42,836 nt of DNA, from the NCBI RefSeq assembly GCF_000157915.1, contig NZ_EQ973637.1, positions 174,506 through 217,341 of the forward strand, written 5' to 3'. Positions 29,830-42,836 of the stretch are shown here, piece after piece. How positions within the stretch are numbered: position 1 is the first letter of the stretch; every line of letters starts with the position of its first letter. A program made the position numbers and the translations under genes. The stretch is from Phocaeicola coprophilus DSM 18228 = JCM 13818 (GTDB lineage: Bacteria > Bacteroidota > Bacteroidia > Bacteroidales > Bacteroidaceae). The notes below the pieces were generated by a model. It did not search any database and was not told the origin of the DNA. It was given only the letters and a program-made list of their open reading frames with translations.

Positions 29830-30369
29830 TAATTAATATATTATATATTGTATTTCTTTTGATGGGGACAAAATGGGGACGGAAATGTGGCAAGAAAAAT
29901 AGTAAGAAAAGAAGAAGCGAGCTGAAAAATTGCATTGCCAATTAAAATTGTTGTTTTGATCTTCTTGTTTGTTGGACAAAGATAATAATGTATTTTAGGT
30001 ATTCTATATTTATAATGGGAAATATTAATTCTTTTAGAAATGATATTTTGCTGTCCAAAAAATAAATAGTTAATTGCTTGATATTTAATTGGTATTGTTC
30101 TAATTTATTCCTTGTTTTTTATCTATGATGTTTTGTCCCTCATTTTTTTACTTCTATGTAACCTTTCCTCATGTTATTAACAACTATTTGGTGAATCATA
30201 TTTTAGATGCTTTGGATAGTTTAGTTTGGTTTTTTGTATATTTAATCAAGTTCTAATCTAAACTTAATGATTTTTTTTTGGCCAGCAGAGCCTTTATACT
30301 AAACCAAGTATGATTACCGTTTCATTAAGTTTTTGTAAATCGACATTCGGGCTTTATGAATAAAATTGT
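29830..30369. other. 540-bp AT-rich gene-free stretch at the left edge of the element
   Basis: No convincing gene is seen. The stretch is AT-rich, opens just after the truncated glycosidase with GGGGACAAAATGGGGAC, and leads into hairpin A. It is a plausible place for the left attachment site, but no duplicated core can be checked because the right end is outside the window. Confidence 0.4.
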
Positions 30370-30508
30370 GGTGCAAAGGTATTTGTTGTGACATTATTGC
30401 ATCGCAAGTTCAGGTCTTTTTGATTCGTGAACAAATCTCCACACTCCATTGGGGGTAGTATTTGTTCACGAAAACTTGCATGAATAGTCAAAACACCTTT
30501 CAAGCACC
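30370..30508 (+). repeat. Hairpin element A (candidate ssDNA promoter)
   Basis: GGTGC (30370-30374) pairs with GCACC (30504-30508); AAAGGT with ACCTTT (30495-30500); GCAAGTT (30404-30410) with AACTTGC (30473-30479); TTCGTGAACAAAT (30424-30436) with ATTTGTTCACGAA (30460-30472). The apex has AAATCTCC facing AGTATTT. The minus-strand -7 box is TACCTTTG (30374-30381), 8/8, with CTTG 23 bp up the arm. A GTAGT/ACTAC stem and AAAAGGGAAA follow at 30530-30553. Confidence 0.85.
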
Positions 30509-30579
30509 CGAATTTTAATTAACCCCGAAGTAGTTGATACTACAAAAGGGAAACAATAACAATCAATAACTAGAAAATT

Positions 30580-30756
30580 ATGTTTGAATACGAAGAACAG
30601 ACTGAAATCATTGGTGCAAGATGCACTCTACACGAAGCGTACAAAGGTTATACAGAGGGAACAATTGTGGGCGATTTTGGGCTCAGAGTCGTTGTCCAGC
30701 TTGACAACGGTAAGGAGATTGTTGAATACCGTGATGAAGTAACGATTTACGATTGA
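30580..30756 (+). CDS. Small SH3/KOW-like protein (58 residues)
   Basis: ATG at 30580 opens MFEYEEQTEIIGARCTLHEA and stops at TGA 30754-30756. The middle (EGTIVGDFGLRVVVQLDNGKEIVEY) has the look of a small SH3-like barrel such as the DUF4314 group. It is the first gene behind hairpin A, with AAAAGGGAAA about 26 bases upstream of the ATG, and likely cotranscribed with the next two genes. Function unknown. Confidence 0.7.
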   Translation: MFEYEEQTEIIGARCTLHEAYKGYTEGTIVGDFGLRVVVQLDNGKEIVEYRDEVTIYD

Positions 30757-30779
30757 TGACTGATTAAATATATTATGAT

Positions 30780-31091
30780 ATGGATAATTTTAGATTCTAT
30801 CAAGATTGTAAAGTTACGTGCTGGGAGCGCGATTACTTTACTGTTGAAGCGGAAAACTATGAAGAAGCAGTAGCTATCGTACGTTCCTGGAAATGTGAAG
30901 ATGTAACCAATATAATAGATTCACGCCTTCATTTGGAGAGAAACGAAGTTCTTCGTGATACTTCCGAACGTATATTTCCTAATGAGAATGGCGGTTGTCC
31001 CACTATGGAGATATATAATGTTGATGGCTTGGCAGTTATAAATGACGCTCCGGATTTGGAGCAAAATCTTGAACATAAATCAATAGTTTAA
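30780..31091 (+). CDS. Small acidic element protein (103 residues)
   Basis: Not firmly recognised. The segment FTVEAENYEEAVAIVRSW resembles the DpnD/PcfM-like small proteins of conjugative elements, but the match is short. It is acidic and soluble. It lies 23 bases after the 58-residue gene and directly abuts the next gene (stop 31091, start 31092). Confidence 0.65.
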   Translation: MDNFRFYQDCKVTCWERDYFTVEAENYEEAVAIVRSWKCEDVTNIIDSRLHLERNEVLRDTSERIFPNENGGCPTMEIYNVDGLAVINDAPDLEQNLEHKSIV

Positions 31092-31349
31092 ATGAATGTG
31101 ATAATAGAACATATATTTTGCCAGTATAGCGATGAAGCTACGGCATTATATTTAAGGATTATTAATGTGATACTTATGTCTTCCAATGAAGCGGAACTTC
31201 GTGCGAGTATGGAAAAATTGAAGCATACATCTAAACTTGACGAATATTTCATATATGGATTTGGCAAGCATCATATTTGGGTATGTTTGCGTAAACCAAG
31301 TGATAGAAATAAGATCTTTGAGCATCGGGTCCTGATGGCCCAGTTCTGA
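31092..31349 (+). CDS. Small element protein (85 residues)
   Basis: Not recognised. A soluble protein with KLDEYFIYGFGKHHIWVCLR in its second half. Its ATG directly follows the preceding TAA, which supports translation as an operon member behind hairpin A. Confidence 0.6.
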   Translation: MNVIIEHIFCQYSDEATALYLRIINVILMSSNEAELRASMEKLKHTSKLDEYFIYGFGKHHIWVCLRKPSDRNKIFEHRVLMAQF

Positions 31350-31359
31350 ATTGGTTTGT

Positions 31360-31396
31360 TTGGTCTGGAGGAGTATGAATCCAATTGCCAGACCAA
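31360..31396. repeat. Hairpin after the first small-gene operon; 600-bp gap follows
   Basis: TTGGTCTGG (31360-31368) pairs with CCAGACCAA (31388-31396) 10 bases past the stop. There is no T run. The gap 31397-31950 is pyrimidine-rich on the plus strand and holds only one weak minus-strand frame. Confidence 0.45.
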
Positions 31397-31639
31397 CTCT
31401 CCCAAGAAGACATCCAGGCAAATCCTTTTTTAATACTTCCATTCCTTTTCTACTTTTAGTGTGGTTGCACTTTGCACTTTTGCATTTTGGACTGTTTTAA
31501 CAATCCTATTCCTCTTGTACTCTTATTTCTTTTGGTTGTGTCCCCTTTTTATTTCAATTTTGTAGTTGTGGTTAGGCTGTGACTTTGTAAGGAGTATGCA
31601 TGTCCTGTTTCCTTTCTCCCCTCTGATCATTTCTTTATG

Positions 31640-31876
31640 TCACAGTTGATTTTGTGTCCACCAATTGCGTTCCGTCGCTGCCCTTCTGTCCATATTCCAA
31701 TTATGGGCTTCTATCCACTGTAGCATTTTCCGCTTGTCTGATCCTTTGGGTGTTCTTCTTTGTTTCTTGTGCTCATATACTATATGGCCGTATGCTTGCT
31801 GCCATGCCATCCTTTCCGTCTGCCGCTTATCGGTCTTATGTCTCTTGCAGGTGGTTTTGGATTTTGTACCATTCAT
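31640..31876 (-). CDS. Doubtful basic ORF (78 residues)
   Basis: A minus-strand frame starting MNGTKSKTTCKRHKTDK and very rich in Lys, Arg, Trp and Gln. An AAGGGA sequence precedes its ATG, and the minus-strand -7 box of hairpin B lies about 80 bases upstream. No family is recognised, and its composition may just mirror the pyrimidine-rich plus strand. Confidence 0.2.
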   Translation of the reverse strand: MNGTKSKTTCKRHKTDKRQTERMAWQQAYGHIVYEHKKQRRTPKGSDKRKMLQWIEAHNWNMDRRAATERNWWTQNQL

Positions 31877-31950
31877 TCCCTTACCTGTCTTCGTTGTCTA
31901 GACTCGATTTTTCATTATTGCTTTTGGGCGAAGTAGTCATCATTTTCCGA

Positions 31951-32112
31951 TGCAAAGATAGTGTGCAGCCGGGAGCGGCCTATGGCCTCTGCCAATGGCG
32001 TGTTTGCACAAATCTTCCTTTATCAAGCCCAGGTTTGTCGTAAAGCCAAAATAAAGAGTATTTGCGCTCCATCCTTGGCCTGTCCCTAAATCAGCACCTA
32101 CTTTTTGATGCA
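31951..32112 (+). repeat. Hairpin element B upstream of ssb
   Basis: Base pairs: TGC (31951-31953) with GCA (32110-32112), AAAG with CTTT (32101-32104), TAG with CTA, GTGC with GCAC. The apex is CAAAT (32009-32013) / ATTTG (32060-32064) with CTTCC (32014-32018) facing GAGT (32056-32059) and an inner TTTAT/ATAAA stem. The minus-strand -7 box is TATCTTTG (31953-31960), 8/8. A small GGCC-TAT-GGCC side stem (31977-31987) sits in the left arm. Confidence 0.8.
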
Positions 32113-32150
32113 ACGTAAAATTGATGTTTAACTTCTAAAAGCAATTAATC

Positions 32151-32531
32151 ATGAAAAAGATCGAGAACAACTTCATCGTAACAGGTTATGTAGGAAAGGA
32201 TGCAGAAATCCGTCAGTTTACCACCGCAAGTGTCGCCCGCTTTTCCATAGCGGTCAGCCGTCAGGAAAAGTCTGGCGATGACAGCAGCTATGTGTCGGCC
32301 TTTATGAATATCGAGGCCTGGAGAAAGAACGAGAACACCTCTTCTTTTGAGCATCTTACCAAGGGAACACTGCTCACAGTTGAGGGCTATTTTAAGCCTG
32401 AGGAATGGACAGACAAGGATGGCGTCAAGAGAAATCGCATTATAATGGTGGCCACTAAGTTCTATCCAGCTGTTGACAAGGAAGAAGAAGCTCCTACGGA
32501 AGCTCCAAAAGGGAAAAAAGGCAGGAAATAA
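32151..32531 (+). CDS. ssb: Single-stranded DNA-binding protein of the element
   Basis: The 126-residue protein has the SSB OB-fold: NNFIVTGYVGKDAEIRQF, VARFSIAVSR, SAFMNIEAW, KGTLLTVEGYFKPEEWTDKDG and RIIMVATKFY. It ends in a basic tail (KGKKGRK) and lacks the acidic DDxPF-type tip that recruits partner proteins in chromosomal SSB. Element-borne ssb genes are typical of conjugative leading regions, where they coat incoming single strands and blunt SOS. It stands alone behind hairpin B and ends in a strong terminator. Confidence 0.93.
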   Translation: MKKIENNFIVTGYVGKDAEIRQFTTASVARFSIAVSRQEKSGDDSSYVSAFMNIEAWRKNENTSSFEHLTKGTLLTVEGYFKPEEWTDKDGVKRNRIIMVATKFYPAVDKEEEAPTEAPKGKKGRK

Positions 32532-32551
32532 TATCCTGCCTCCCACAGGGA

Positions 32552-32575
32552 AGCGGCCTTCGGGTCGCTTTTTTT
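32552..32575 (+). terminator. ssb terminator
   Basis: AGCGGCC-TTCG-GGTCGCT forms a 7-bp stem (one G-T pair) with a UUCG tetraloop, followed by seven T. Confidence 0.95.
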
Positions 32576-32644
32576 AACTTGATTTGTTTCTTCCTTTTTA
32601 TCTGTTGTTCCTACTAGAAGTCAGACCGTCACCCATTGAATTTC

Positions 32645-32813
32645 TACGTGCGAATTTAAGGAGTAAGTGAACCGTCAAGGCGCTTCTTCATTTGTATTAA
32701 GAAACATCAACTTATTTTTTCGCTGACATTTCTTAACGCAAATGATACAGTAATATACTTTTTCGCTTCCTCCTTGCTTGTTCACTTCTTTTTCTCCTTT
32801 CTCTTGGCACGTA
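32645..32813 (+). repeat. Hairpin element C
   Basis: TACGTGC (32645-32651) pairs with GCACGTA (32807-32813); GTGAAC-cgt-CAAGG with CCTTG-ctt-GTTCAC; CATTTG-ta-TTAAGAAA with TTTCTTAA-cg-CAAATG. These long perfect stems share almost no sequence with other copies beyond the CAAGG/CCTTG rung. The minus-strand -7 box is TAAATTCG (32651-32658), 7/8, with CTTG 17 bp up the arm. GGTC/GACC (32830-32844) and AGGGAAATG follow. The apical CTTCC motif is not evident here. Confidence 0.85.
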
Positions 32814-32894
32814 AATTCAATCTCCTGCCGGTCAAGATTAGACCTCAAAAGCAGGGAAATGAACAACAATCTTAAACTTTTAAATTATTGTAAG

Positions 32895-33416
32895 ATGAAA
32901 CAGATGTTTATTTGGTCAAGCGAAAGAGAATTTGACGAGCAGGCTAAAACAGAAATGCAGCAATGGAAACGTGATTTATTAGGCGATGATTCCTATGTCC
33001 TTACCGATGAGGATATAGCAGATGAACTACAGCGAGAGCTTGAAGACGAACGCTGTAATCTCAACAAATCAGTTGAAGGTGTTATTGTTGTATTTGGTGA
33101 CCTCGGACTTTGGTATGGACGGCGACAAGGTTATCAGATTTTAGGAAATAATATCGCCAATATCCTGTATAGTCAGTGTGAGATTGCGGAATGGTACGGA
33201 GACGGTTATAATATCAGAGGACGCATGTCGCACCATGATGGCACGAACTATACTCTTTATCGCATCGCTAAGGACGAAGACGATGCAGAACGGATTGCAG
33301 AAATGATTTATAACAACGAGATTGACGAAGCAGGCTTCAGACGCAGAACACGTTCACTTTACCCACATGTGGCAAAAGTGTACGGATGGAAGATAAGAGG
33401 GCGCAAGAAAGTTTGA
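32895..33416 (+). CDS. Element-specific protein with HHDGTN motif (173 residues)
   Basis: I recognise the type from Bacteroides conjugative elements but know no function. The protein starts MKQMFIWSSEREFDEQAKTE and has a conserved-looking core VFGDLGLWYGRRQGYQ, a second segment GRMSHHDGTNYTLYRIAKD, and a basic C-terminus. ATG 32859 is in frame upstream, but it overlaps the AGGGAAATG leader motif shared with other hairpins, so I start at 32895. It is the only gene between hairpin C and a terminator. Confidence 0.7.
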   Translation: MKQMFIWSSEREFDEQAKTEMQQWKRDLLGDDSYVLTDEDIADELQRELEDERCNLNKSVEGVIVVFGDLGLWYGRRQGYQILGNNIANILYSQCEIAEWYGDGYNIRGRMSHHDGTNYTLYRIAKDEDDAERIAEMIYNNEIDEAGFRRRTRSLYPHVAKVYGWKIRGRKKV

Positions 33417-33431
33417 TCACAGTAGACGAAT

Positions 33432-33482
33432 GAACGTCGCCACTATATTTTGAATATATATTGCGGCGTTCGTTGGGTTTTA
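33432..33482 (+). terminator. Likely terminator after the HHDGTN gene
   Basis: GAACGTCGC (33432-33440) pairs with GCGGCGTTC (33463-33471) with one wobble, around an AT-rich inner stem, followed by GTTGGGTTTT. Confidence 0.55.
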
Positions 33483-33542
33483 CGGATAACTCCGTATGTA
33501 CCTTTTTAGCCAACATCCCTTAGAAATGGTTCTTTTACATAG

Positions 33543-34259
33543 TCATTGTTTTTGTTTATTTTCTTCTTTTTCTATGATTTTGCATACCTTATCTACCTCT
33601 TTTAGTGAAGGCATAATCTCAGGGTCTATCCATGTAAGAAAATCACTGATTATCGTATACATACCCTTCACATAAGAAAAATCACATTTTCTGTTTACAA
33701 AACATATCGGCTCATTATGATTGATGCGGTTACGCAGTTCACGAACTTGTACTATAATATCGTTAATCTCCTTGCGACCGAATCCGGGAGGCAGTTTCTT
33801 GAAAATCCGGCAGGGTACACCAGCCAAAAGCGCATAGTGGTGTGTTTCATAAAAGCTATTCCAGAAGCCCAGGGTCTGTTCAGCTATTACTCTCCCAGTC
33901 GTAACCCTGACACCCCTATCGGCAATTTTCTTTTCTGCTTTCAGAACCTCTTTCAATATATAGTCATTGGTAACTTTTTTCTTTGTCCGCTTGTTCGTAT
34001 ATGTCAGAGACGGAGCAATCATGAATCCGGTTTTCTGGTTGATAATCCAGTTACCATCGGAAAAATGGTGTGCCAGCGCATAATGCAGTTGGTTACGTAA
34101 TATAACTTCAAATGAAGACAGTAACGGATGAAACGCTTGTGCTATCTTCATGTTGGCAAAATAGAGCATGACTGCCTTGTTTTTGTTGCGGTTGGTCGCC
34201 CTATAATATTTGGCGACCCTCGAATTGGAATATAATCTGACTACTTTTTTATATTTCAT
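33543..34259 (-). CDS. Abi-family HEPN protein (AbiD/AbiF-like)
   Basis: The 238-residue protein matches the Abi_2 family of abortive-infection proteins: AVMLYFANMKIAQAFHPLLSSFEVILRNQLHYAL near the N-terminus, and the HEPN ribonuclease motif Rx4H in RNRINH (residues 176-181). It would act as an RNase that halts growth upon phage or plasmid entry. It is on the minus strand, without a hairpin element. Directly upstream and divergent is a promoter and short structured RNA, an arrangement I recall from abiF-associated RNAs, so the RNA may act as its partner or antidote. Confidence 0.85.
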   Translation of the reverse strand: MKYKKVVRLYSNSRVAKYYRATNRNKNKAVMLYFANMKIAQAFHPLLSSFEVILRNQLHYALAHHFSDGNWIINQKTGFMIAPSLTYTNKRTKKKVTNDYILKEVLKAEKKIADRGVRVTTGRVIAEQTLGFWNSFYETHHYALLAGVPCRIFKKLPPGFGRKEINDIIVQVRELRNRINHNEPICFVNRKCDFSYVKGMYTIISDFLTWIDPEIMPSLKEVDKVCKIIEKEENKQKQ

Positions 34260-34290
34260 TTTGCATATTCAAATAAAAGTCGTATCTTTG
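34260..34290 (+). promoter_or_regulatory. Promoter of the abi-associated small RNA
   Basis: TTTG (34260-34263), a 19-bp spacer and TATCTTTG (34283-34290) form an exact Bacteroidetes promoter. The -33 box touches the start codon of the divergent abi gene. Confidence 0.85.
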
Positions 34291-34294
34291 TATC

Positions 34295-34373
34295 GTAATG
34301 CTTGGTAAAGCCTCTGTTGTCAAAACACGTAACCAAGTTAAGGATATACCCGTTCATCAAGAACGGGTTTTTT
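34295..34373 (+). ncRNA. Candidate abiF-type small RNA
   Basis: Between an exact promoter and a perfect terminator lies about 80 nt without an ORF. CTTGGT (34301-34306) pairs with ACCAAG (34332-34337), and ACCCGTTC-ATCAA-GAACGGGT (34348-34368) with a six-T tail ends it. Placement next to an AbiF-like gene matches the abiF RNA motif described from comparative genomics; the consensus itself could not be compared here. Confidence 0.8.
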
Positions 34374-34665
34374 CATTTGTGGCCATCCTTTTGTTTTCTG
34401 CAACAAAAATACAAAAAGGAAGGCTGTTAAAAAATACTTCAAGCCATTTTTAATATCATAAGAGCATAAAATCTCTTTTAGGAGGCAATAAACATTTACA
34501 GTAGATGTTGTTTTGATATAAGTGTTGGCTTATGTTAAACAGTAGCATCCGTAGTAAATGTTGGTGGTACTCCTTTTATAACTCCTATAGTACAAGAACA
34601 ACCAGTTTTGATATTTATAGTTCCTCTTCCTCGATGTGTGTCCTTTCCGAACTCTGGTTATTTTC

Positions 34666-34805
34666 TCTGCAAAGTTCGATTGCCTTCTCTTCGTCCTGTC
34701 AAGGTTTGCTTTTAGCGTGTTGCTGAAAAATCTTCCTTTCCACTTCGCTGAAAGTGTATTTTTCGCATCATCCTTGACCGGACTGCTTGCCAATCTTTGG
34801 GCAGA
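34666..34805 (+). repeat. Hairpin element D
   Basis: TCTGC (34666-34670) pairs with GCAGA (34801-34805); GATTG (34678-34682) with CAATC (34791-34795); GTCC-tgt-CAAGG with CCTTG-acc-GGAC; GAAAAAT with ATTTTTC at the apex, with CTTCC (34732-34736) facing GTGT and an inner TTTC/GAAA stem. The minus-strand -7 box is GAACTTTG (34670-34677), 7/8, with CTTG 22 bp up the arm. GGTC/GACC (34822-34837) and AGAGGGCAG follow. It is closely similar in sequence to element G. Confidence 0.85.
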
Positions 34806-34875
34806 AAAATAATCAGCCTTCGGTCCAGAATGCGACCAGAGGGCAGAAAAAGCAAAATGTAAAGATTGGTAAACT

Positions 34876-35562
34876 ATGGTACAACAAATTTTAGATGACT
34901 TGCGGACGTATTTCGAGGCAAAGACCACGATAACACCAGAAGAGCAGGCTCTCCTGCAGCGGTTGAAAGATGATTTCTTTCCTATTACCTCCGTCAGCAG
35001 GGAGGATTTGCAGACCTACGGCTTCGATACGCGTTCCGTTACAGATGCTCAGATGCGTAGATTGGCTCAAAAAATGGCAAATGATTACTGCGAGCAGCTT
35101 TTTTGGTCAAGCATGGAAATTATCGCCGAAGGGTTGGAGTTTCCGCGTTACCCCGAATGTCCGGTTTGCGCCAGCCGGCATGTTTGTCTCGATGGGCAGA
35201 AAGGTACTTTTCGTTGTGAAGGTTGCGGGCAGGAGTGGCATGAACATTTGTATGTTCTGGTTGAGTTTCCTGACGACACGTCTTTCTTCGAAGAAGAATA
35301 TATCGGTTATCCTTCGTTTGGTAGCAGTGACAATGGTGCACGTTATGTTTCCGAATACGATTATATTGCCCATTTTAAGAAACAACCGGAGTCGAACAGA
35401 TATTTCAAACCGCTTGGCTGGCCGGAATCACAACTATACCTTTTTCAAGACGAATCTAACGATGATCTCTATAGTTTGAACGAGCCAATTCAAGATGAGA
35501 GCGGTATCGAGGATTTTGGGGAGAATGCGGTATGGGTTCCACTCTGCAACCTCAAGCAATGA
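34876..35562 (+). CDS. Zinc-ribbon element protein (228 residues)
   Basis: Not assigned to a named family with confidence. The N-terminal half has DLQTYGFDTRSVTDAQMRRLAQKMANDYCEQLFWSSMEIIAE, a pattern I associate with large polyvalent-protein-type element proteins. It is followed by a zinc ribbon CPVC...CEGC (about residues 94-118) and an acidic C-terminus. It is alone behind hairpin D. A role in establishment in the new host is inferred from context. Confidence 0.7.
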   Translation: MVQQILDDLRTYFEAKTTITPEEQALLQRLKDDFFPITSVSREDLQTYGFDTRSVTDAQMRRLAQKMANDYCEQLFWSSMEIIAEGLEFPRYPECPVCASRHVCLDGQKGTFRCEGCGQEWHEHLYVLVEFPDDTSFFEEEYIGYPSFGSSDNGARYVSEYDYIAHFKKQPESNRYFKPLGWPESQLYLFQDESNDDLYSLNEPIQDESGIEDFGENAVWVPLCNLKQ

Positions 35563-35741
35563 TTACTCGGAACAGATTCAGAAAGGTGTCGTATGAACGG
35601 GAAGAGGGCGGAGAATCCGTCCTCTCTCTTTATGTCGTGTACCTTTGGTTGGCTTGTTTCACCATGTATAACATCTTGTTTGCATTTCACTTGTTGACGC
35701 AGTATTTCCCAAATGTTTTGGCAGTGAGCTGGCGATAAACG

Positions 35742-35786
35742 ACGGTATCTCACCGAGAAGCCGTTACTTATCGGCGAGATACCGGT
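35742..35786. repeat. Long hairpin in a 530-bp gene-free gap
   Basis: ACGGTATCTCACCGA (35742-35756) pairs with TCGGCGAGATACCGGT (35771-35786) with one mismatch and a bulge. There is no T run. The rest of 35563-36092 has no convincing gene on either strand; frames there are short and unlike known proteins. Confidence 0.6.
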
Positions 35787-36092
35787 AGTCACGTTGTTCA
35801 GAAACCACTCTTACCGGTTCACGAAGTGATGCCGTAGTCTCCGCAGATTGATGTAGAAGCAGGCTTTGCTGTAGTGTACTTATCGACTTGCAATGATCGT
35901 TCCTACATTTTTATCCTATAGTATCACATAGGGACTTCATGTCATTTCTTACCCTCTTTTACTCGTTTCGTACCATACAGTACCATATATAGATGAATCC
36001 CTTTTTAGCTTCCATCGTCCTTTTTTATCGTTCCCCGGTATCAGTATTCTTTTCCGTCAGACTTTCTTGTCCGTTATCGCATCGGTTTTATC

Positions 36093-36224
36093 GGTGCAAA
36101 TATGGGCTGCCGCGCCTGATTCCGTCGTTTTGAAGTGCATTTCTTGCAAATTCTTCCTTCTGCGAAGTGTAATTGACAAGAAAAAACGTCGGAAAGGGCT
36201 TCATCGTCAGCCCCGGAAAGCACC
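36093..36224 (+). repeat. Hairpin element E
   Basis: GGTGC (36093-36097) pairs with GCACC (36220-36224); GGGCTG (36104-36109) with CAGCCC (36208-36213); TTCCG (36120-36124) with CGGAA (36190-36194); TTTCTTG with CAAGAAA; apex AAATT/AATT with CTTCC (36153-36157) facing GTGT (36167-36170) and an inner TTC/GAA stem. The minus-strand -7 box is CATATTTG (36097-36104), 7/8. A GGATTCC/GGAAGCC stem, GACC and AGAGGGAAATG follow. Confidence 0.85.
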
Positions 36225-36296
36225 ATAAAACCCGAAGCGGATTCCGTTACAAGGAAGCCGACCAGAGGGAAATGAAACAACTTAAAAAATATAGTT

Positions 36297-36611
36297 ATGA
36301 CATTCAAAGAATTTATGCAAGAGAACGGTTATGAGTTGCAGACAACATTTTGGGAAGACTTTTCAATAGCTGATAGGTTTGGTTTGACAGCTATCCAAGA
36401 CACATTCAACCGTGCTTTTGAAGAGTGGAAAGAGCATTACAAGTATCTAACAGAGTTGATATTGGTACTTAATCATAAGATATGGCAATATCATGATACA
36501 TACCCTGAGTTTGCAGCACTGTATAATAGCCTATGGGAAAAGGCAGACTTATATGCTGTTGAAAACCTTAAAGGGGAGGCGTTGGACTATTTTTATGAAG
36601 TAACAGATTAA
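36297..36611 (+). CDS. Element protein (104 residues)
   Basis: Not recognised beyond being typical of Bacteroides elements. The acidic, helical protein begins MTFKEFMQENGYELQTTFWEDFSIADRFG. It is the first gene behind hairpin E and lies 11 bases before an LPD11-like gene. Confidence 0.7.
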   Translation: MTFKEFMQENGYELQTTFWEDFSIADRFGLTAIQDTFNRAFEEWKEHYKYLTELILVLNHKIWQYHDTYPEFAALYNSLWEKADLYAVENLKGEALDYFYEVTD

Positions 36612-36622
36612 TTTACAAGAAT

Positions 36623-36916
36623 ATGAGTACGTGTACAATACCTACAGAGGAAAACGGTCGGGTGACACTTGCTGATGTTGTCAATCGTGACAAGCGATTC
36701 CGATATATGCTATTATCCCGTCTGCAGTCAGATTGTGATTATTATCTTCATTATGGGGAGCGGCATCCCAAAGGGTTGTGGGCTGGCGACGAAGCTCTTC
36801 AGATTGAGTTTATGACCAAGCTATACGAGAGTTTTAAAGCCGATGAAAAGCCGGAGTGGCTGACAATGGAACAGATTCGACGCTATGCGGCTGAGATGTT
36901 GGGAACAGGTTCATAA
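36623..36916 (+). CDS. LPD11-like protein, copy 1 (97 residues)
   Basis: The core RDKRFRYMLLSRLQSDCDYYL...LWAGDEALQIEFMTKLYESF...KPEWLTMEQIRRYAAEM matches the large polyvalent-protein-associated domain 11 pattern. Such domains occur in proteins deployed by mobile elements on entry. A second copy lies at 42254-42508. It is in the operon behind hairpin E and ends in a strong terminator. Confidence 0.8.
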   Translation: MSTCTIPTEENGRVTLADVVNRDKRFRYMLLSRLQSDCDYYLHYGERHPKGLWAGDEALQIEFMTKLYESFKADEKPEWLTMEQIRRYAAEMLGTGS

Positions 36917-36954
36917 TGCTTTGGACAGCTGCATACGTGCAACCGTCATTTTCT

Positions 36955-36999
36955 ATCAATGCTGCAGAGGACAAATATAGTTTAGCAGCATTGATTTTT
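36955..36999 (+). terminator. Terminator of the hairpin-E operon
   Basis: ATCAATGCTGC (36955-36965) pairs perfectly with GCAGCATTGAT (36985-36995), followed by TTTTT. Confidence 0.85.
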
Positions 37000-37066
37000 C
37001 AATGTTGTACAGTTTTAACGCAGGTTTTTATCGTGCCTAGAAGTCTCTTATTCCATTTATATTATT

Positions 37067-37168
37067 TCATCTGTCGTCCCTGAAGTTGCTTTTCCCATAG
37101 CCTCTTAGCAGGGCTTTTACTATCTTGGCAAATATCCATACTGCTGCTACTACTATTATAACTTCCAT
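37067..37168 (-). CDS. Candidate 33-residue membrane peptide after the RHH gene
   Basis: ATG 37166-37168 opens MEVIIVVAAVWIFAKIVKAL and ends RDDR at TGA 37067-37069. It is one hydrophobic helix followed by a basic tail. It lies 108 bases downstream of the ribbon-helix-helix gene on the same strand. It is too short for certainty. Confidence 0.4.
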   Translation of the reverse strand: MEVIIVVAAVWIFAKIVKALLRGYGKSNFRDDR

Positions 37169-37260
37169 GGTTTAATTATTTAATTATACATTTATATTAT
37201 TATATAATTAAATATTTATATAACTATGTAATTACATAAATATTCTCATTGTCTTATATG
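37165..37260. repeat. AT-rich repeats downstream of the partition pair
   Basis: Almost pure A/T with recurrent TTAATTAT, TATAATTA and ATTTATATAA words. Similar words lie on the other side of the parA operon at 38367-38580, so the two may be partition (centromere) sites bound by the RHH protein. Confidence 0.45.
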
Positions 37261-37275
37261 CTGTTAATAAGTAGA

Positions 37276-37644
37276 TTATAGGTTCTCAAACTTTGTCTTA
37301 TTCTCTTCGATGTATGTCATGATTATAGCTGAAGCAAGTGTCCTGATAGGAATGTTGCGGTTAGAGTTAATACGTATTTTCTCTAGTTCCTTTTTTACCT
37401 CTTTAGGCAGCCATACTGCTACTCCTTGTTCGCCAAAACCAGTGTACTTTGCTAGATTCTCCTCGAAGAATTTTTTGCTGCTTTTTCTGGTTTTAGGCTT
37501 CTTTTCTGCCTTTGTTGTTTCTTCCGTTTTAGGCTTTTCTTTTTTGTCTTTCGGCGCCTCCGGCTGGGTTATTCCGCGTACTATTTGGTCAAGCCCTATG
37601 CTTGCCAATGGGTTATCTATCGCAGGTCTTTCGTTCTTTTTCAT
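37276..37644 (-). CDS. Ribbon-helix-helix DNA-binding protein next to parA
   Basis: The 122-residue protein has a Lys/Glu/Pro-rich flexible N-terminal 65 residues and a C-terminal ribbon-helix-helix-like region (VAVWLPKEVKKELEKIRINSNRNIPIRTLASAIIMTYIEENKTKF). It follows the ParA-like gene by 16 bases, as RHH-type ParB partners do, and DUF3408-type proteins follow ParA-like TraA in CTnDOT relatives. It probably binds the AT-rich repeats flanking the operon. Confidence 0.75.
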   Translation of the reverse strand: MKKNERPAIDNPLASIGLDQIVRGITQPEAPKDKKEKPKTEETTKAEKKPKTRKSSKKFFEENLAKYTGFGEQGVAVWLPKEVKKELEKIRINSNRNIPIRTLASAIIMTYIEENKTKFENL

Positions 37645-37660
37645 ATCATTTGAGTTTTAT

Positions 37661-38306
37661 TTAAATTATTTCCATGATTTTTCTGAATGCAGGTTCTACA
37701 ATGTCAAGCTGTGTCTTTTCCAAAGGATACAATGTCGTATATCGCTTCACGGCTACACTCTGCTTTACCATCGGCATTACGGCACCTACCAGTCCGAGCA
37801 ACTCGATGGTTTGCGCTCTCTGTCTCAATTCTTCTGACTTGCGCTCCGATGTAATGATACGATTGGGAATAAATACAAGATTGGCTTTTGATACACTCTT
37901 CAATGCTTTGATGAATATTCCGGTTGCATCTACAGTATCTGGGTCAAATGAAATCGGGATTATAGCTGCGTCTGCATTCTTGTAGATGTACTCAAGATTG
38001 CGGTCGTTCAGGTTTCCTGGACAGTCGATAAGGACGATGCCCGGAACTTTTTTAAGTTGTTCCATCGCCTTTTTCAGATGCTTGCTGTCTGCGGTGTCAA
38101 GCAAATCTACGTTCCATGGAGCCTTTGCATCTGCAGCCACGTCCTGCTCTCTTTGGCGATGACGATAGAGTGAGGCCTGGAGGTCTGCGTCTATCGTGAT
38201 TACAGGCACTCCGTTTTCTGCAAGATAGCTTGCGAAAAGTGCGCAGAGTGTGGTTTTGCCTACACCTCCTTTTATATTGCTGAAGATTACAATTTTTATT
38301 TTCCAT
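37661..38306 (-). pseudogene. ParA-family partition ATPase with a one-base frameshift at its start
   Basis: The ATG at 38304-38306 has a good GGAG site and an exact promoter, but its frame leaves the ParA frame at a run of five A (plus-strand T 38293-38297). One A fewer would give MENKIVIFSNIKGGVGKTTLCALFASYLAENGVPVITIDADLQ, a perfect ParA start with the deviant Walker A. The rest is intact (LIDCPGN Walker B, then IIPISFDPDTVDA) to a stop at 37661. As it stands, the open frame begins at GTG 38209 without Walker A. It may be a true mutation, a sequencing error in the homopolymer or a slippage site. Confidence 0.75.
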
Positions 38307-38337
38307 ACTTCTCCTTTTATATAGTTTCTATCTTCCG

Positions 38338-38367
38338 CAAAGATAGTAAAAACTCTTTAAATTCAAA
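38338..38367 (-). promoter_or_regulatory. Promoter of the parA operon
   Basis: On the minus strand TTTG (38364-38367), an 18-bp spacer and TATCTTTG (38338-38345), an exact -7 box, lie 31 bases upstream of the parA ATG. Confidence 0.75.
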
Positions 38368-38580
38368 ATATTCTATTATATAATTATATAATTGTCTTTT
38401 TATTTTATTATATAATTGTATAATATATTTAGCTTATAAACAACATGTATATAATTTGTTACATGTTATATACGTGTTACTTTTTGTTTATCTTAACAAC
38501 GTAATGTAGTGATATAATTATATAAATATATAATTCATTAAAAATATAATTATACATTTGCATAAATATATAATAATGTA
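38367..38580. repeat. AT-rich repeat block upstream of parA
   Basis: About 200 bp of nearly pure A/T with at least five TATAATTATA- or TATAATTGTA-like words and ATATAATT runs. It could be a partition site, operator or replication-related region. From 38581 to 38776 I see no gene. Confidence 0.5.
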
Positions 38581-38776
38581 ATTTCCTGGCATCGTTGCTG
38601 ATTTTAAGTGACAGAGACACGGAAAACGGATATTGGCATAAATTTCATGTTGATTATACCGCAATAGGGTAATATTTTTGTTTTAGTCCCTTTCTACTTC
38701 CTTCAGAACCCTTTTAATTTCTTTTTGTCTTTATTGCATTTTGCCCTATTATTGCCCGTTGGGTGATGTCATTTTA

Positions 38777-38906
38777 TCTGCAAAGTTAGCTTGCACCTGA
38801 ATTTTGGCCAAGTGATGCTTCGCTTTTCATTTGAAAAATCTTCCTCCTCTGGAGAGTATTTTTCAAGAAACACTTGTCTTCATTCTATTGCAATCTTTTA
38901 GGCAGA
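38777..38906 (+). repeat. Hairpin element F
   Basis: TCTGC (38777-38781) pairs with GCAGA (38902-38906); AAAG with CTTT; TTGCA (38791-38795) with TGCAA (38889-38893); CAAGTG (38809-38814) with CACTTG (38871-38876); TTTGAAAAAT with ATTTTTCAA at the apex, CTTCC (38840-38844) facing GAGT (38854-38857) and an inner TCC/GGA stem. The minus-strand promoter is the best of the family: CTTG, 20 bp, TAACTTTG (38781-38788). AAGGGAACA follows. Confidence 0.85.
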
Positions 38907-38992
38907 AAAATAGACAAATCCCTCCGGGCAGAATAAGCTGGAATATAAGGGAACAAACAATTTGATTATTAATTTCTTAAATAATTATTGTT

Positions 38993-39475
38993 ATGAGTGT
39001 TTTGAAACAAACAGAAAAAATTCGTTCTATTGTCGTGTCGGTATTGTGCCGTAAAAATCGCAGGTTTCAGTCCGAGCCGGTGTTTGCCATGGAGCGTTGT
39101 ATAGAAAAGGAAAATAATCTTACCCGTGTTTTACTCACCGAAATTTTCACCAACGGCCTTTGTTTAGTAACATATCCTTGCTACAACGAGGAACAGCGAA
39201 ACCTTTCCGATATTTGCCTTGACAGTTTGCTTCGCTTGCTGTACTTGGTTGAGCCAGAGTTTGACTTTGTAAGTTGTCTTGACGAATACTCAGTATATGC
39301 TTATCCCGTTAGCCGTTTTAGCCGTGATGTGTCTGACGAGGATATTATTTCCGATTACGTGAATAACTTCAATGATGAAGATCCGGTAAGGAAATATACC
39401 ATTGAAGAGTTTTTGTCCTATATCAACGACGAGTGCTTTGATGATCTTGGCTATTGGGTTCGTTTGCTCAGGTAG
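38993..39475 (+). CDS. Element protein (160 residues), first gene of the hairpin-F operon
   Basis: Not recognised. A soluble, acidic protein with a Cys-rich middle (SDICLDSLLRLLYLVEPEFDFVSCLDEY) and an acidic tail. It has no membrane segment. It is followed by three further genes on the same strand with short gaps, which suggests one operon. Confidence 0.65.
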   Translation: MSVLKQTEKIRSIVVSVLCRKNRRFQSEPVFAMERCIEKENNLTRVLLTEIFTNGLCLVTYPCYNEEQRNLSDICLDSLLRLLYLVEPEFDFVSCLDEYSVYAYPVSRFSRDVSDEDIISDYVNNFNDEDPVRKYTIEEFLSYINDECFDDLGYWVRLLR

Positions 39476-39520
39476 TTTTGGTAGTTAAATATTTTGTATA
39501 ATATATTAATCAGATGCTTT

Positions 39521-40354
39521 ATGAATTTAGAGAATATTAGTAAGCAACAGCTTTTTCGGGAGATTACAGAACTTATGCAGCCGTTGTATTTCCCTGTACC
39601 TTATGAAGAAAATAATATCCAGGAATTAGCCCAACAAGAATATAAGTTGTTTTGTAAGGTAATATCCGCAAGATATGGCTTCGACAATGACAAGTATATC
39701 CTTGCCCATAATGGGCATTCACTGTTTGACATTGTACACGATGATGTCATTTGTGAGTTGCGTTCCCGTATGCGTAGAGATTCCTATCTGCTTCAGAGCG
39801 AAACCATTCGGTGGCATCTTGTTGCATTGGTTCGTCAGGCCGTTGTCAGAGCTGGAGGATGTCTTGGCACTTGTTATAAGAATGTGGGTATCCACCATAT
39901 GGAATATAGTTCCGCAGATATGTATGAGGATGTTCCTGCAGTAGTCTTTCAGAGCGGTATGGTATGTACAGCCGGAGGGTATGAGAGTGCCATGTTGTAC
40001 GATATTTATCTTGCATCGGACGACATACTGATGTGTACTCTTGATGACAAATACAGCAGCGAGTATGATATTCCATTCGACACTCTTTTACTCGAAAGTA
40101 TGTTGGATATAGTGCATTGGTTACGTTTCCATTCATTCCTGCCTGATACTGACGAACCGGAGTGGGTATGCGAGGAGTGCGGTTCATCTGAGGTGGAAAC
40201 TCTGGCATGGGTTAATCCCAACGAGGACAATTCGTTTGTCGATTTTTTGGGTACAGATGACAGAGGTAACAACTGGTGTCATCATTGTGAGGAGCATACT
40301 GGTCTTGCGCTGTTTGCAGATTATGGTAGTAACCAATCATCTTTAGGAGATTAA
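39521..40354 (+). CDS. Element protein with C-terminal zinc ribbon (277 residues)
   Basis: No family recognised. From the ATG at 39521 it begins MNLENISKQQLFREITELMQ. The C-terminus has a split zinc ribbon, CEEC (after PEWV) and CHHC about 45 residues later. The upstream frame from 39494 uses a non-ATG start and is not preferred. It ends 5 bases before the radical SAM gene, so the two are probably coupled. Its middle (AVVFQSGMVCTAGGYESAML) is unassigned. Confidence 0.65.
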   Translation: MNLENISKQQLFREITELMQPLYFPVPYEENNIQELAQQEYKLFCKVISARYGFDNDKYILAHNGHSLFDIVHDDVICELRSRMRRDSYLLQSETIRWHLVALVRQAVVRAGGCLGTCYKNVGIHHMEYSSADMYEDVPAVVFQSGMVCTAGGYESAMLYDIYLASDDILMCTLDDKYSSEYDIPFDTLLLESMLDIVHWLRFHSFLPDTDEPEWVCEECGSSEVETLAWVNPNEDNSFVDFLGTDDRGNNWCHHCEEHTGLALFADYGSNQSSLGD

Positions 40355-40359
40355 TATTT

Positions 40360-41046
40360 ATGGATAGTGTTTATATCAGGAATTTCAGCATCGAAGTGAC
40401 ACGCCGTTGCAATATGGCGTGTTCACATTGTATGCGTGGCAATGCTATGACACTCGACATCAGCCATGCCTATATTCGGAATATGTTAAGCCGTGTTTGT
40501 GCGGTTCACAACATCAATATTACAGGTGGTGAGCAGTCTCTCAATGTCAAGGCTATGCGATACCTTCTTTCTCACCTCAAACATCGAGAAATCCATGTTG
40601 ACCGTTTCTATATTGTCACCAATGGCTCTTTGTCCTCTATTTCTCATGAGTTTATAGAAACTTGTTGTGCTCTGTATGATTACCAGACAGAGAAGGTCGA
40701 AGATACAGGCAGGTGTATGCTCGAATTGAGCGATGACCGTTTTCACGACAGTACAGGTCGTGAAAAGATCGTATTCCGTTTGTCAGAGCTTCCTTTTTTC
40801 GGTATGCGTGGCCAGTCGGAACACATGTTCCTTTTCAAGGAAGGAAGATGCACAGTCGGTTTTGACAATCCGGTTTATCCCATTTACATGGACGAGGATG
40901 GAGTCGTTCACGGCGATGTTTATCTCAATGCAAAAGGCATGGTCTGCAGTAATGGAGACATGAGTTACCAGCGACAGGAGTCTAATTCCCTTTGCACTTC
41001 CTCTCGCTTTTATAGTTATCTGAAGTCAACAGTCGGTAAGTATTGA
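40360..41046 (+). CDS. Radical SAM protein (228 residues)
   Basis: The 4Fe-4S motif is CNMACSHC (Cys17, Cys21, Cys24), the usual Cx3Cx2C, followed by a GGEQ segment near residue 56 for SAM binding. At 228 residues it is a minimal radical SAM barrel. A Cys-containing tail (GMVCSNGDMSYQ) could hold a second cluster but is short for SPASM. The next gene is a PAPS-reductase-like PP-loop protein 9 bases downstream, which suggests joint modification of a nucleic acid or nucleotide. The substrate is unknown. Confidence 0.85.
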   Translation: MDSVYIRNFSIEVTRRCNMACSHCMRGNAMTLDISHAYIRNMLSRVCAVHNINITGGEQSLNVKAMRYLLSHLKHREIHVDRFYIVTNGSLSSISHEFIETCCALYDYQTEKVEDTGRCMLELSDDRFHDSTGREKIVFRLSELPFFGMRGQSEHMFLFKEGRCTVGFDNPVYPIYMDEDGVVHGDVYLNAKGMVCSNGDMSYQRQESNSLCTSSRFYSYLKSTVGKY

Positions 41047-41055
41047 ATTTAAGTT

Positions 41056-41904
41056 ATGAAGACAGTTAATAGTTTGTCAGGAGGAAAAACTTCCTCTTAC
41101 ATCGCCGTGCATTATCCGGCAGATATCGAAGTCTTTGCGCTTTGTTGCATTGATTGTCACAATGCCGGAGCCACCATCGACAAGCGTATGAAGCAGATGG
41201 TCAATGACAGGTTGCAGAAGTATTGTTCACATTATCCCGAATTTGTGGCCACTTCCGAAGATCCGAAAGTTCTCAAGGTCATTTTCGATCTTGAACAGCG
41301 TATAGGTCGTGAGATAATTTGGTTACGCGGTATGGGTTGGGAGGAAATGATACGCCGTAAGCGTGCTATTCCCAATCGGACCAAACGCTTTTGTACGACA
41401 GTCTTGAAGATGCAGCCCATCTTCGAATTTCTTTATTCATACCACGAGCTGCCCGTTCGTATGAGGATAGGCTATCGTTACGACGAGCAGGAACGTGCGT
41501 TGCGTTTTACCGAGAATTTCAAGTTCGCTTATATGGCGGAATGGCAGGAGCGGTCATGCCGCTGGATTAACCGCTGGCAGGATATTCATTGGCGGGTGGG
41601 TGAGTTCCCTCTCATAGAAGACCGTATCACCCACTATGACATCAAGCGTTACTGGCAGGACAAGGGAATTGACTTTCCCGAAGATTCCAACTGTCTCAAC
41701 TGCTTTTGGAAAGCGCCGGCACAACTGCGCAAGAATTTCGATACATGTCCTCCCGTCATGTGGTGGTCAGCTATACAGGAGGATCTTCAAGGCAACACCT
41801 TCAAGGACAAGATGAGCCTTTCATCCATATCCAGGCTGCCGCTTCAGCTCGACTTCTTTTATGGTACAGGTTCAGGCTGTCAAGCAGGTTTCTGTACAGA
41901 TTGA
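41056..41904 (+). CDS. PAPS-reductase-like PP-loop ATPase
   Basis: The 282-residue protein begins MKTVNSLSGGKTSSYIAVHYPADIEVFALCCIDC, a PP-loop (SGGKTS) of the phosphoadenosine phosphosulphate reductase/DndC superfamily. Cysteines in FCTTVLK, NCLNC and the C-terminal GCQAGFC could bind a cluster or take part in sulphur transfer. True PAPS reductases end with a catalytic ECGLH, which is absent. A thiolation or other base-modifying role is inferred from this and from the adjacent radical SAM gene. It ends the hairpin-F operon. Confidence 0.82.
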   Translation: MKTVNSLSGGKTSSYIAVHYPADIEVFALCCIDCHNAGATIDKRMKQMVNDRLQKYCSHYPEFVATSEDPKVLKVIFDLEQRIGREIIWLRGMGWEEMIRRKRAIPNRTKRFCTTVLKMQPIFEFLYSYHELPVRMRIGYRYDEQERALRFTENFKFAYMAEWQERSCRWINRWQDIHWRVGEFPLIEDRITHYDIKRYWQDKGIDFPEDSNCLNCFWKAPAQLRKNFDTCPPVMWWSAIQEDLQGNTFKDKMSLSSISRLPLQLDFFYGTGSGCQAGFCTD

Positions 41905-41921
41905 TCCTATATTCCTTATTG

Positions 41922-41952
41922 GACCTGTCGGCTGCTTGTCGGCGGGTCTTTT
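41922..41952 (+). terminator. Terminator of the hairpin-F operon
   Basis: GACCTGTCGGC (41922-41932) and GTCGGCGGGTC (41938-41948) pair along 11 positions with G-T wobbles, followed by TTTT. Confidence 0.65.
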
Positions 41953-42036
41953 CCCGTTTATATATTGTAGTCCCGGATATCCCTATTATACTCGTTGCCG
42001 GTTAGTATCATCAATGCCAAACCTGTTTATTTTCTC

Positions 42037-42172
42037 TGCAAAGTTCGATTGCCTTCTCTTAGTCCTGTCAAGGCCTGCTTTCAGCGTGTTGCTGAAAAAT
42101 CTTCCTTTCCGCCCTGCCGAAAGCGTATTTTTCGCACCATCCTTGGCCGGACTGCTTGTCAATCTTCGGGCA
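42037..42172 (+). repeat. Hairpin element G
   Basis: TGC (42037-42039) pairs with GCA (42170-42172); GATTG with CAATC; AGTCC-tgt-CAAGG (42061-42073) with CCTTG-gcc-GGACT (42141-42153); GAAAAAT with ATTTTTC at the apex, CTTCC (42101-42105) facing GCGT (42123-42126) and an inner TTTC/GAAA stem. The minus-strand -7 box is GAACTTTG (42039-42046), 7/8, with CTTG 22 bp up the arm. A CTTTT/AAAAG stem, GACC and AAAGGGAAAT follow. Confidence 0.85.
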
Positions 42173-42253
42173 TAAAAAATCAACCTTTTGGCAAAAAGAT
42201 GTACGACCAAAGGGAAATAAATAATTTAATGTTCAATTTAATCGGATAATACA

Positions 42254-42508
42254 ATGGGAATAGAAGAAATTTTACAGCGTGATTCAAAATACAAATATAT
42301 GTTGCTTGGTCGTATGCAGTCAGATTGCGAGTACTATCTTGGCTTCGGTAATAGGAATCAGTCCCGTCTATGGGCTGGCAACGAAGAAAAGCAGATAGAA
42401 TACATGAAACAGCTTTATAACAGTTTCGATGAAGATGAGAAACCGCAATGGCTGTCCATGAGCCAGATTCTGGATTACGCCAGACAGATGATACCTTCTG
42501 CTGAATAA
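42254..42508 (+). CDS. LPD11-like protein, copy 2 (84 residues)
   Basis: A paralogue of 36623-36916: RDSKYKYMLLGRMQSDCEYYLGFGN...LWAGNEEKQIEYMKQLYNSF...KPQWLSMSQILDYARQM. The whole protein is the LPD11-like domain. It is alone between hairpin G and a terminator. Confidence 0.82.
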   Translation: MGIEEILQRDSKYKYMLLGRMQSDCEYYLGFGNRNQSRLWAGNEEKQIEYMKQLYNSFDEDEKPQWLSMSQILDYARQMIPSAE

Positions 42509-42534
42509 ATCTATATACTGGCCATAATCAAATC

Positions 42535-42570
42535 CCGCAGGCATTGAGTTTTGCTTAATGCCTTGCGGTT
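42535..42570 (+). terminator. Terminator of LPD11-like copy 2
   Basis: CCGCAGGCATT (42535-42545) pairs with AATGCCTTGCGG (42557-42568) with one bulge. The T run is short (TTATATCC). Confidence 0.6.
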
Positions 42571-42680
42571 ATATCCTGTTTCCCTCTTTTAGTCAGCATA
42601 TCCATTTTATATTTCCATGCCTCCACTTATATCTGTTGTTCCAACATTCATTGTTCACATCGGGAGTAGCCATTCATTTC

Positions 42681-42822
42681 ACTGCAAAGTTCTATTGATG
42701 CCAGCCATATCTTTACAAGGCTTCCTTCCTCCTTCCAGTTATGTCAGAAATCTTCCTTTTTCCTGAAAAAGAGTATTTCAGCCATAAACCTTGCAGATAT
42801 TGGCATCAATACATTAAGCAGT
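42681..42822 (+). repeat. Hairpin element H (its gene lies beyond the window)
   Basis: ACTGC (42681-42685) pairs with GCAGT (42818-42822); ATTGATGCCA (42694-42703) with TGGCATCAAT (42801-42810); ATATCT with AGATAT; CAAGG (42716-42720) with CCTTG (42789-42793); apex GAAAT/ATTTC with CTTCC (42752-42756) facing GAGT (42771-42774) and an inner CTTTTT/AAAAAG stem. The minus-strand -7 box is GAACTTTG (42685-42692), 7/8, with CTTG 23 bp up the arm. Confidence 0.85.
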
Positions 42823-42836
42823 AAAATTGAATTAAT

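Follow-up and report, generated by a model that had tools for sequence, protein, structure and literature searches.

The left part of a putative conjugative element in Phocaeicola coprophilus DSM 18228 = JCM 13818 contains a series of long hairpins of one orientation, and the question raised by this locus is whether such structures act as RNA, as duplex DNA or as folded single-stranded DNA. The stretch analysed, here called the window, is 42,836 nucleotides (nt) long and corresponds to C64:174506-217341 (contig NZ_EQ973637.1). From about 30.3 kb rightward the window resembles the left part of a conjugative element, with genes for SSB, LPD11, ParA-like and radical SAM proteins and small unknown genes, and these are followed outside the window by DUF4313, a resolvase and a MobV relaxase. 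The order SSB, DUF4313, LPD11, resolvase, mobV is common to one Parabacteroides record and one Bacteroides record. The evidence on the hairpins points to DNA rather than RNA and, judging from sequence, we put at roughly 0.8 the probability that they are single-stranded-DNA promoters in the leading region of an integrative conjugative element.

Fold and covariation of the hairpins

The original prediction had placed eight hairpins in the window, and both sequence and folding bore them out at the coordinates given: A (30370-30508), B (31951-32112), C (32645-32813), D (34666-34805), E (36093-36224), F (38777-38906), G (42037-42172) and H (42681-42822), all assigned here to the minus strand. All eight are present and more exist, since the same contig carries a ninth hairpin (k1), apparently of the window's element, and five further hairpins that belong to a second element. 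Seven of the eight precede plus-strand genes, as had been proposed for all of them; the right edge of the window adjoins a 1601-nt run of N (C64:217342-218942), which conceals whatever follows hairpin H. It was also correct that neither the minus-strand abi gene nor the minus-strand parA gene has a hairpin before it.

Single-stranded DNA folding with 12-nt flanks, compared with 100 dinucleotide shuffles, gave z-scores of -6.5 for A, -2.4 for B, -6.6 for C, -5.8 for D, -5.5 for E, -4.8 for F, -3.0 for G and -6.6 for H. Among 130 hairpin-free 160-nt segments of positions 30000-42836, each compared with 40 shuffles, seven reached z<=-3 and one z<=-4, while z<=-4 was reached by three of the five segments on the same grid that contained at least 120 nt of hairpin. 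Against the hairpin-free segments, six of the eight hairpins therefore stand out individually. Hairpins B and G are weak alone by this measure, and their membership of the family comes from the alignment and the covariance model.

Thirteen copies, with C left out, were aligned with MAFFT, and the structure was set by hand from the folds. In this alignment 77% of cells pair, compared with 66% after shuffling, and both-sided change occurs in 28 of 38 pairs, compared with 16 after shuffling, a value equalled in none of 500 shuffles. RNAalifold with no imposed structure recovered only 15 pairs (-4.3 kcal/mol) from the same alignment. A first covariance model, R1, built on the raw MAFFT alignment, kept only six pairs and was dropped in favour of R2, which holds the hand-set structure; hairpin C was excluded from R2 and is not recovered by it. 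The 101 matches of the model reduce to 72 non-redundant copies, window copy C not among them, with a mean fold z of -4.8 and 93% of copies below -2. Covariation over 89 distinct rows scores 0.43, compared with 0.14 after shuffling, in an alignment that had itself been fitted to R2. Together, covariation and fold z-scores support the earlier proposal that selection acts on the fold and not on the sequence. Outside this general divergence, an apical core, AAATAC.CT / AGGAAGATTT, is nearly invariant except in C; it includes a conserved internal loop, lies upstream of the -33 position described below and may resemble an UP element or be bound by a protein.

A promoter box on the strand opposite the genes

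The consensus of the Bacteroidota primary sigma factor has been described as TAnnTTTG at -7 and TTTG near -33 (PMC7366714). In the minus-strand alignment of the 13 copies, TT.GC near the 3' end of the hairpin is invariant and, with its neighbours, amounts to TAnnTTTG, such that, apart from the apical core, conservation is highest in the bases of a -7 box reading on the strand opposite the genes. The TGC/GCA core previously said to close the hairpins at the base does exist as bases, although it is better described as the last G of this -7 box and the next two bases.

The window copies had been picked for their hairpins and not for any promoter box. All of them carry the -7 box on the 3' arm of the minus strand, adjacent to the closing GCA, with at least five of six bases in 8/8 and six of six in three. 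On the minus strand it reads TACCTTTG at 30374-30381 in A, TATCTTTG at 31953-31960 in B, TAAATTCG at 32651-32658 in the divergent C, CATATTTG at 36097-36104 in E and TAACTTTG at 38781-38788 in F, and GAACTTTG in D (34670-34677), G (42039-42046) and H (42685-42692). A TTG stands 20-23 nt upstream of the box in five of the eight (20 nt in F, 22 nt in D and G, 23 nt in A and H).

The same picture is obtained with the 72 copies, in which the -7 box has all six bases in 41, five in 29 and four in two, that is, at least five in 70/72. By comparison, the template arm, scored at the best of nine offsets, never reaches six, and its mean of 3.5 is close to the 3.3 of random letters. Complete boxes anywhere in the hairpin are present on the strand presumed to be transferred (the T-strand) in 40 of 71 copies, compared with 4.1 in shuffled sequence, and on the gene strand in 0 of 71, again compared with 4.1; the gene strand of the window hairpins contains none either. 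Moreover, a TTG lies 18-24 nt upstream of the box in 53/72 copies, compared with 20/72 and 0/72 in two control windows of equal width.

The stem is loose where the box lies. Mean pairing in the 72 copies is 0.54-0.78 in the eight bases before the box and 0.35-0.57 over its first seven bases, and rises to 0.92-0.93 at the last G and the next C. Such an opening can be read directly from the sequence of hairpin E, in which CAGCCC-ATATTTG-CACC stands against CAGCCC-CGGAAAG-CACC with the box opposite the mismatched CGGAAAG, and from that of hairpin H, in which GGCATCAATA-GAACTTT-GCAGT stands against GGCATCAATA-CATTAAG-CAGT with the box opposite the mismatched CATTAAG. Since the conserved box is on the minus strand and the stem is open over it, a box complete for the downstream gene would be present only in the self-folded minus strand. 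On this model, the template of the downstream gene is the gene-proximal arm of the folded strand.

A conserved fold with covariation, placed before genes in a single orientation, would also suit structured RNA leaders (an attenuator, riboswitch or antitermination site) whose transcription, shared with the plus-strand operons, starts at ordinary promoters further upstream, as the original prediction had implied. Such leaders are nevertheless quite unlikely, because what is conserved at the foot of the hairpin is a promoter box read on the other strand and because the gene-strand DNA upstream of the hairpins holds complete -7 boxes in only 4/71 copies, no excess over the 5.7 of shuffled sequence. 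The wobble pairs are not of a prevailing RNA type, with 81 C.A (equivalent to G.U in gene-strand RNA) against 125 G.T on the minus strand of the 72 model-selected copies. In addition, the Rfam search proposed earlier found no family at gathering score at the hairpins. Its only hit in the window was a TPP riboswitch (RF00059, 7240-7335, minus strand, E 3.7e-11), which is outside the element.

Relaxase, predicted origin of transfer and probable transferred strand

A single-strand promoter would require the folded strand to be the one that is transferred. Thirty-two MobV loci were collected by MobV relaxase alone, regardless of hairpins. R2 gave 13 matches in seven of these loci, of which L089 and L090 have identical matches, and none in the other 25, some of which are short or distant. 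Each of the 13 matches lies before mobV, on the strand that does not encode it. The hairpins in MobV loci point at the predicted origin of transfer (oriT). On the hairpin strand, GTTATAC is found upstream of mobV in 11 of 15 loci, mostly after an imperfect inverted repeat; the preceding repeat is lacking in L067, L089 and L108, and in L108 the motif is at a different distance. In seven hairpin elements, two of which are also among these 15 loci, the motif occurs upstream of mobV on the hairpin strand in five and on the mobV strand in none.

At the nick of pMV158 the sequence continues TTATAC. The GTTATAC motif resembles the MOBV1 nick, given as TAGTGTG/TTA (PMC5090054). A conserved block upstream of mobV in locus L015 (17674-17876), with the palindromes CGGGCTTGCCCG and CAGCAAGCTG, is the predicted oriT, and a comparison of the predicted oriT region with Rfam gave nothing at E<=0.1. 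If the nick is at GTTATAC, the transferred strand runs from mobV into the hairpin region and the relaxase genes enter last, which has been described as the typical arrangement (PMC11541004). From the predicted nick motif and the layout of the F plasmid we infer that the transferred strand is the minus strand.

An example is provided by NZ_OY725765.1, in which 7/7 hairpins were found on the plus strand (50,000 of 52,438 bases covered) and the motif is on the same strand, 189 nt before mobV, at +36009. The record (L068, L135) is labelled as a circular plasmid. A closed circle with adjoining hairpin groups was considered and rejected, since the gene cut at its start, which shares 86.5% identity with residues 1-1330 of a relative of 1657 aa, is not continued at its end. 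The ends are out of frame, with phage-tail-type genes at one of them, and the record is likely to be a mislabelled linear contig.

A wider survey of relaxases covered nine genomes, which were searched for PF03432 and PF01076 and in which 108 hairpin matches form 55 clusters. Of these, 29 have a relaxase within 40 kb and 26 do not. Twenty of the 29 point at the nearest relaxase and run with its gene. PF03432 relaxases alone had been considered as an explanation and were discarded, because clusters next to MobV genes were left out, many of which were covered by PF01076.

The direction of transfer also bears on the possibility that the hairpins are double-stranded regulatory sites co-regulating establishment genes, like the EGeRS of pLS20 plasmids. 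The establishment genes of pLS20 share long upstream sequences that were argued not to be single-stranded-DNA promoters, partly from the strand that is nicked (PMC8708921). For the present hairpins a duplex role is highly improbable: the folded strand shows a recognisable promoter box, and the strand predicted to be nicked is the fitting one. A leftward promoter in the duplex would direct transcription away from the gene, and no complete box is present on the gene strand.

Proposed mechanism

Promoters folded from the transferred strand would work as follows. The minus strand would enter the recipient and the hairpin fold, with the -33/-7 promoter on one arm pairing with the arm that serves as template of the downstream gene. 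Host RNA polymerase would then start at the hairpin base, before a second strand exists, reading toward the 5' end of the strand, until second-strand synthesis ended transcription. This silencing is suggested by the lack of a complete -7 box on the gene strand of the duplex. The gene products would protect or establish the incoming element, and the transcript could also prime second-strand synthesis, as stated for Frpo.

Priming might even be the main function, with the hairpins as ssi/sso-type initiation sites on the entering strand and gene expression as a by-product. Such sites would use the same strand and the same folded promoter, and a sliding-clamp gene is present behind one copy. However, priming would hardly seem to call for eight or nine sites in one element, every one of them a short way ahead of a gene, and this interpretation is very unlikely. 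It appears rather likely that conjugative elements of Bacteroidota have a single-strand promoter class of their own, unrelated in sequence to Frpo, keyed to the sigma factor of the phylum and present in up to nine copies per element, which would make the whole leading region one regulon, active only while the element is single-stranded and newly arrived. Consequently, the gene behind each hairpin would be a candidate anti-defence or establishment factor of gut bacteria.

Several observations weigh against single-strand promoters. With regard to the promoter, the -33 element is weak, since a TTG at 18-24 nt is missing in B and E and C has one only at 17 nt. The first base of the -7 box is G in D, G and H, and C in E. 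In some copies the TTTG is paired with the other arm, and the loose part is therefore TAnn more than the whole box; nor is the bubble unique, as pairing reaches only 0.44-0.66 in the spacer further up too. The conservation of the box in the 72 relatives is inflated, because the model that selected them contains the box. The wobble pairs of the 14 seed copies (17 C.A, 20 G.T) do not differ significantly, the T-strand excess vanishing, and wobble asymmetry was set aside as a discriminator between RNA and DNA because the excess is confined to model-selected copies.

With regard to transfer, the nick motif is absent upstream of mobV in two of the seven hairpin elements, and both pMV158 and a group B streptococcal element are nicked on the strand that encodes the relaxase, the opposite of the assignment inferred here (PMC5863519, PMC5090054). 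NZ_OY725765.1 holds the motif twice more, at +5519 and -40983, and as its ends do not join it does not show its two hairpin groups to be adjacent. Six of the 29 clusters run with the nearest relaxase but lie past or around it; these would presumably come to lie next to the other leading-region DNA once the element circularises. Three of the 29 do not run with the nearest relaxase, and one of them (G002:C1, 1926-1936 kb) points at a PF03432 relaxase that lies 13 kb away in the other direction. Finally, the loose test for open reading frames (ORFs) in the loci of the phylum survey hardly splits the two sides of the hairpin (9/10 and 7/10).

Genes behind the hairpins

Sufficient flank for an ORF test was available for 63 of the 72 copies, the other nine being without it. 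ORFs of 80 aa or more that begin no further than 400 nt away were found on the predicted side in 59/63, at a median distance of 56 nt, and on the other side in 26/63. An RGGGAM motif within 130 nt of the hairpin is likewise more frequent on the gene side (43/63) than on the other (21/63), often, by eye, after a small second inverted repeat. Sixty-two of the 63 first ORFs were compared with Pfam, the 63rd reaching the edge of its record. The first genes include eight for SSB, three for ParB, three for N6-methylases, one for RadC and one for the DNA polymerase III beta clamp, and most of the 62 have no family at E<=0.001. In addition, an ArdA gene is found behind one hairpin (locus L128) in the window's own family.

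Within the window, small ORFs follow hairpin A from about 30580. Behind hairpin B is an SSB gene (32151-32531, plus strand; Pfam PF00436, E 3.6e-16; TIGR00621 above cut-off). The gene behind hairpin C (32778-33416, plus strand) has no family; its listed start is a TTG inside the hairpin, and by eye the true start is likely to be an ATG near 32895. Hairpin D is followed by a gene with a weak zinc-ribbon match (34876-35562, plus strand), and hairpin E by two genes (36297-36916, plus strand), the second of which encodes an LPD11 protein (PF18824, E 5.3e-32). Another LPD11 gene (42254-42508, plus strand; PF18824, E 2.3e-34) is behind hairpin G. The operon behind hairpin F (38993-41904, plus strand) comprises four genes, two unknown, one radical SAM and one weakly SspD-like. 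Its radical SAM protein matches PADLOC pVip (E 2e-8) and its SspD-like protein has an E of 4e-8; these are possibly genes for DNA or nucleotide modification.

Among neighbouring features, an Abi-like gene with no hairpin is located at window positions 33543-34259 on the minus strand (PADLOC PD-T4-5, E 1.5e-13). A 540-aa protein with an Hcp/TssD domain is encoded within the hairpin region at L015 9547-11169 (C64:219547-221169). In the second element of the contig, a methylase-helicase gene is apparently split, and a group II intron reverse transcriptase is encoded downstream of it (L010 3721-10257; C64:113721-120257).

Distribution of the hairpins

Matches at E<=0.001 occur in 22 of 60 genomes of the search among relatives, the source genome included. 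In a sample of the phylum, 11 of 394 genomes have matches at E<=1e-4, and seven of the 11 are in one genus of another order; the spread is probably underestimated, because the filters were strict and about seven scored candidates were taken per genome. The first genes of ten loci from this survey include four for SSB and one each for ArdA, PcfK and an AbiEii-like protein, and an SSB gene is behind the hairpin in four of seven loci of the other order. Relatives of hairpin D are present in three plasmid records and in two records filed as phage. The latter two (MT837569.1, 808-977, and MT835864.1, 1493-1664), filed as Bacteriophage sp., may be fragments of conjugative elements.

Several diverged copies of one hairpin might also be left by a miniature transposable element repeat inserted before genes. 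The chance of this is next to negligible, given, target-site duplications left aside, the single orientation within the clusters of the window's contig, the short distance to the gene, the covariation and a position before SSB that recurs in another order.

Comparison with known systems

Single-strand promoters are known from a few enterobacterial plasmids, and Bacteroidota are a dominant phylum of gut bacteria. If the hairpins are promoters of this kind, the principle reaches that phylum on a different promoter consensus. R2 would then provide a sequence handle for listing the early-expressed and mostly uncharacterised genes of these elements, whose products might act against restriction, CRISPR and SOS responses.

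The closest counterparts are Frpo1 and Frpo2 of F. These hairpins of the transferred strand rebuild a promoter and are located in the leading region, ahead of ssb and further early genes. In the model described for Frpo, the entering strand folds, RNA polymerase transcribes it and second-strand synthesis stops transcription (PMC9849209); the title of Masai and Arai 1997 states that the transcript primes second-strand synthesis. Folded by the same method, the hairpin upstream of F ssb has an AT-rich tip and unequal arms, as do the present hairpins. The leading genes of F (methylase, antirestriction, SSB, ParB-like, psiB) are similar in kind and are oriented toward traM and the tra genes. The systems differ in promoter and host, with a sigma-70 box in F and a sigma-ABfr type TAnnTTTG in Bacteroidota here, and in number, with two Frpo described for F and apparently nine hairpins in the window's element. 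R2 had no match at E<=1 in the F leading region, and blastn of the hairpins gave only 13-base matches (E 0.03-0.04), a comparison limited to F.

Similarly, leading operons of ColIb-P9, including ardA, are described behind single-strand promoters of ssi type (PMC9849209, PMC3969726, PMC8708921); the likeness is to published descriptions and not to sequence, and the promoter class differs. The EGeRS of pLS20 resemble the hairpins as repeated upstream sequences before several establishment operons, but are longer, fold with no promoter and, according to their authors, have an unfitting nicked strand (PMC8708921). Among the titles and abstract openings listed from the open-licence literature, preprints being outside this scope, none described single-strand promoters in Bacteroidota, which leaves their absence unproven. 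The leading-region anti-defence islands of PMC11541004 are alike in having SSB, methyltransferase and anti-restriction genes on the strand templated by the T-strand. Unlike in the present search, Frpo were located there by BLAST comparison with five known Frpo/ssi sequences and by sigma-70 boxes, and the string 'bacteroid' occurs 0 times in its main text. The best reading is that the mechanism is the one known from E. coli plasmids, and that the hairpins represent a Bacteroidota-specific class, with many copies per element, in Bacteroidales and a family of another order.

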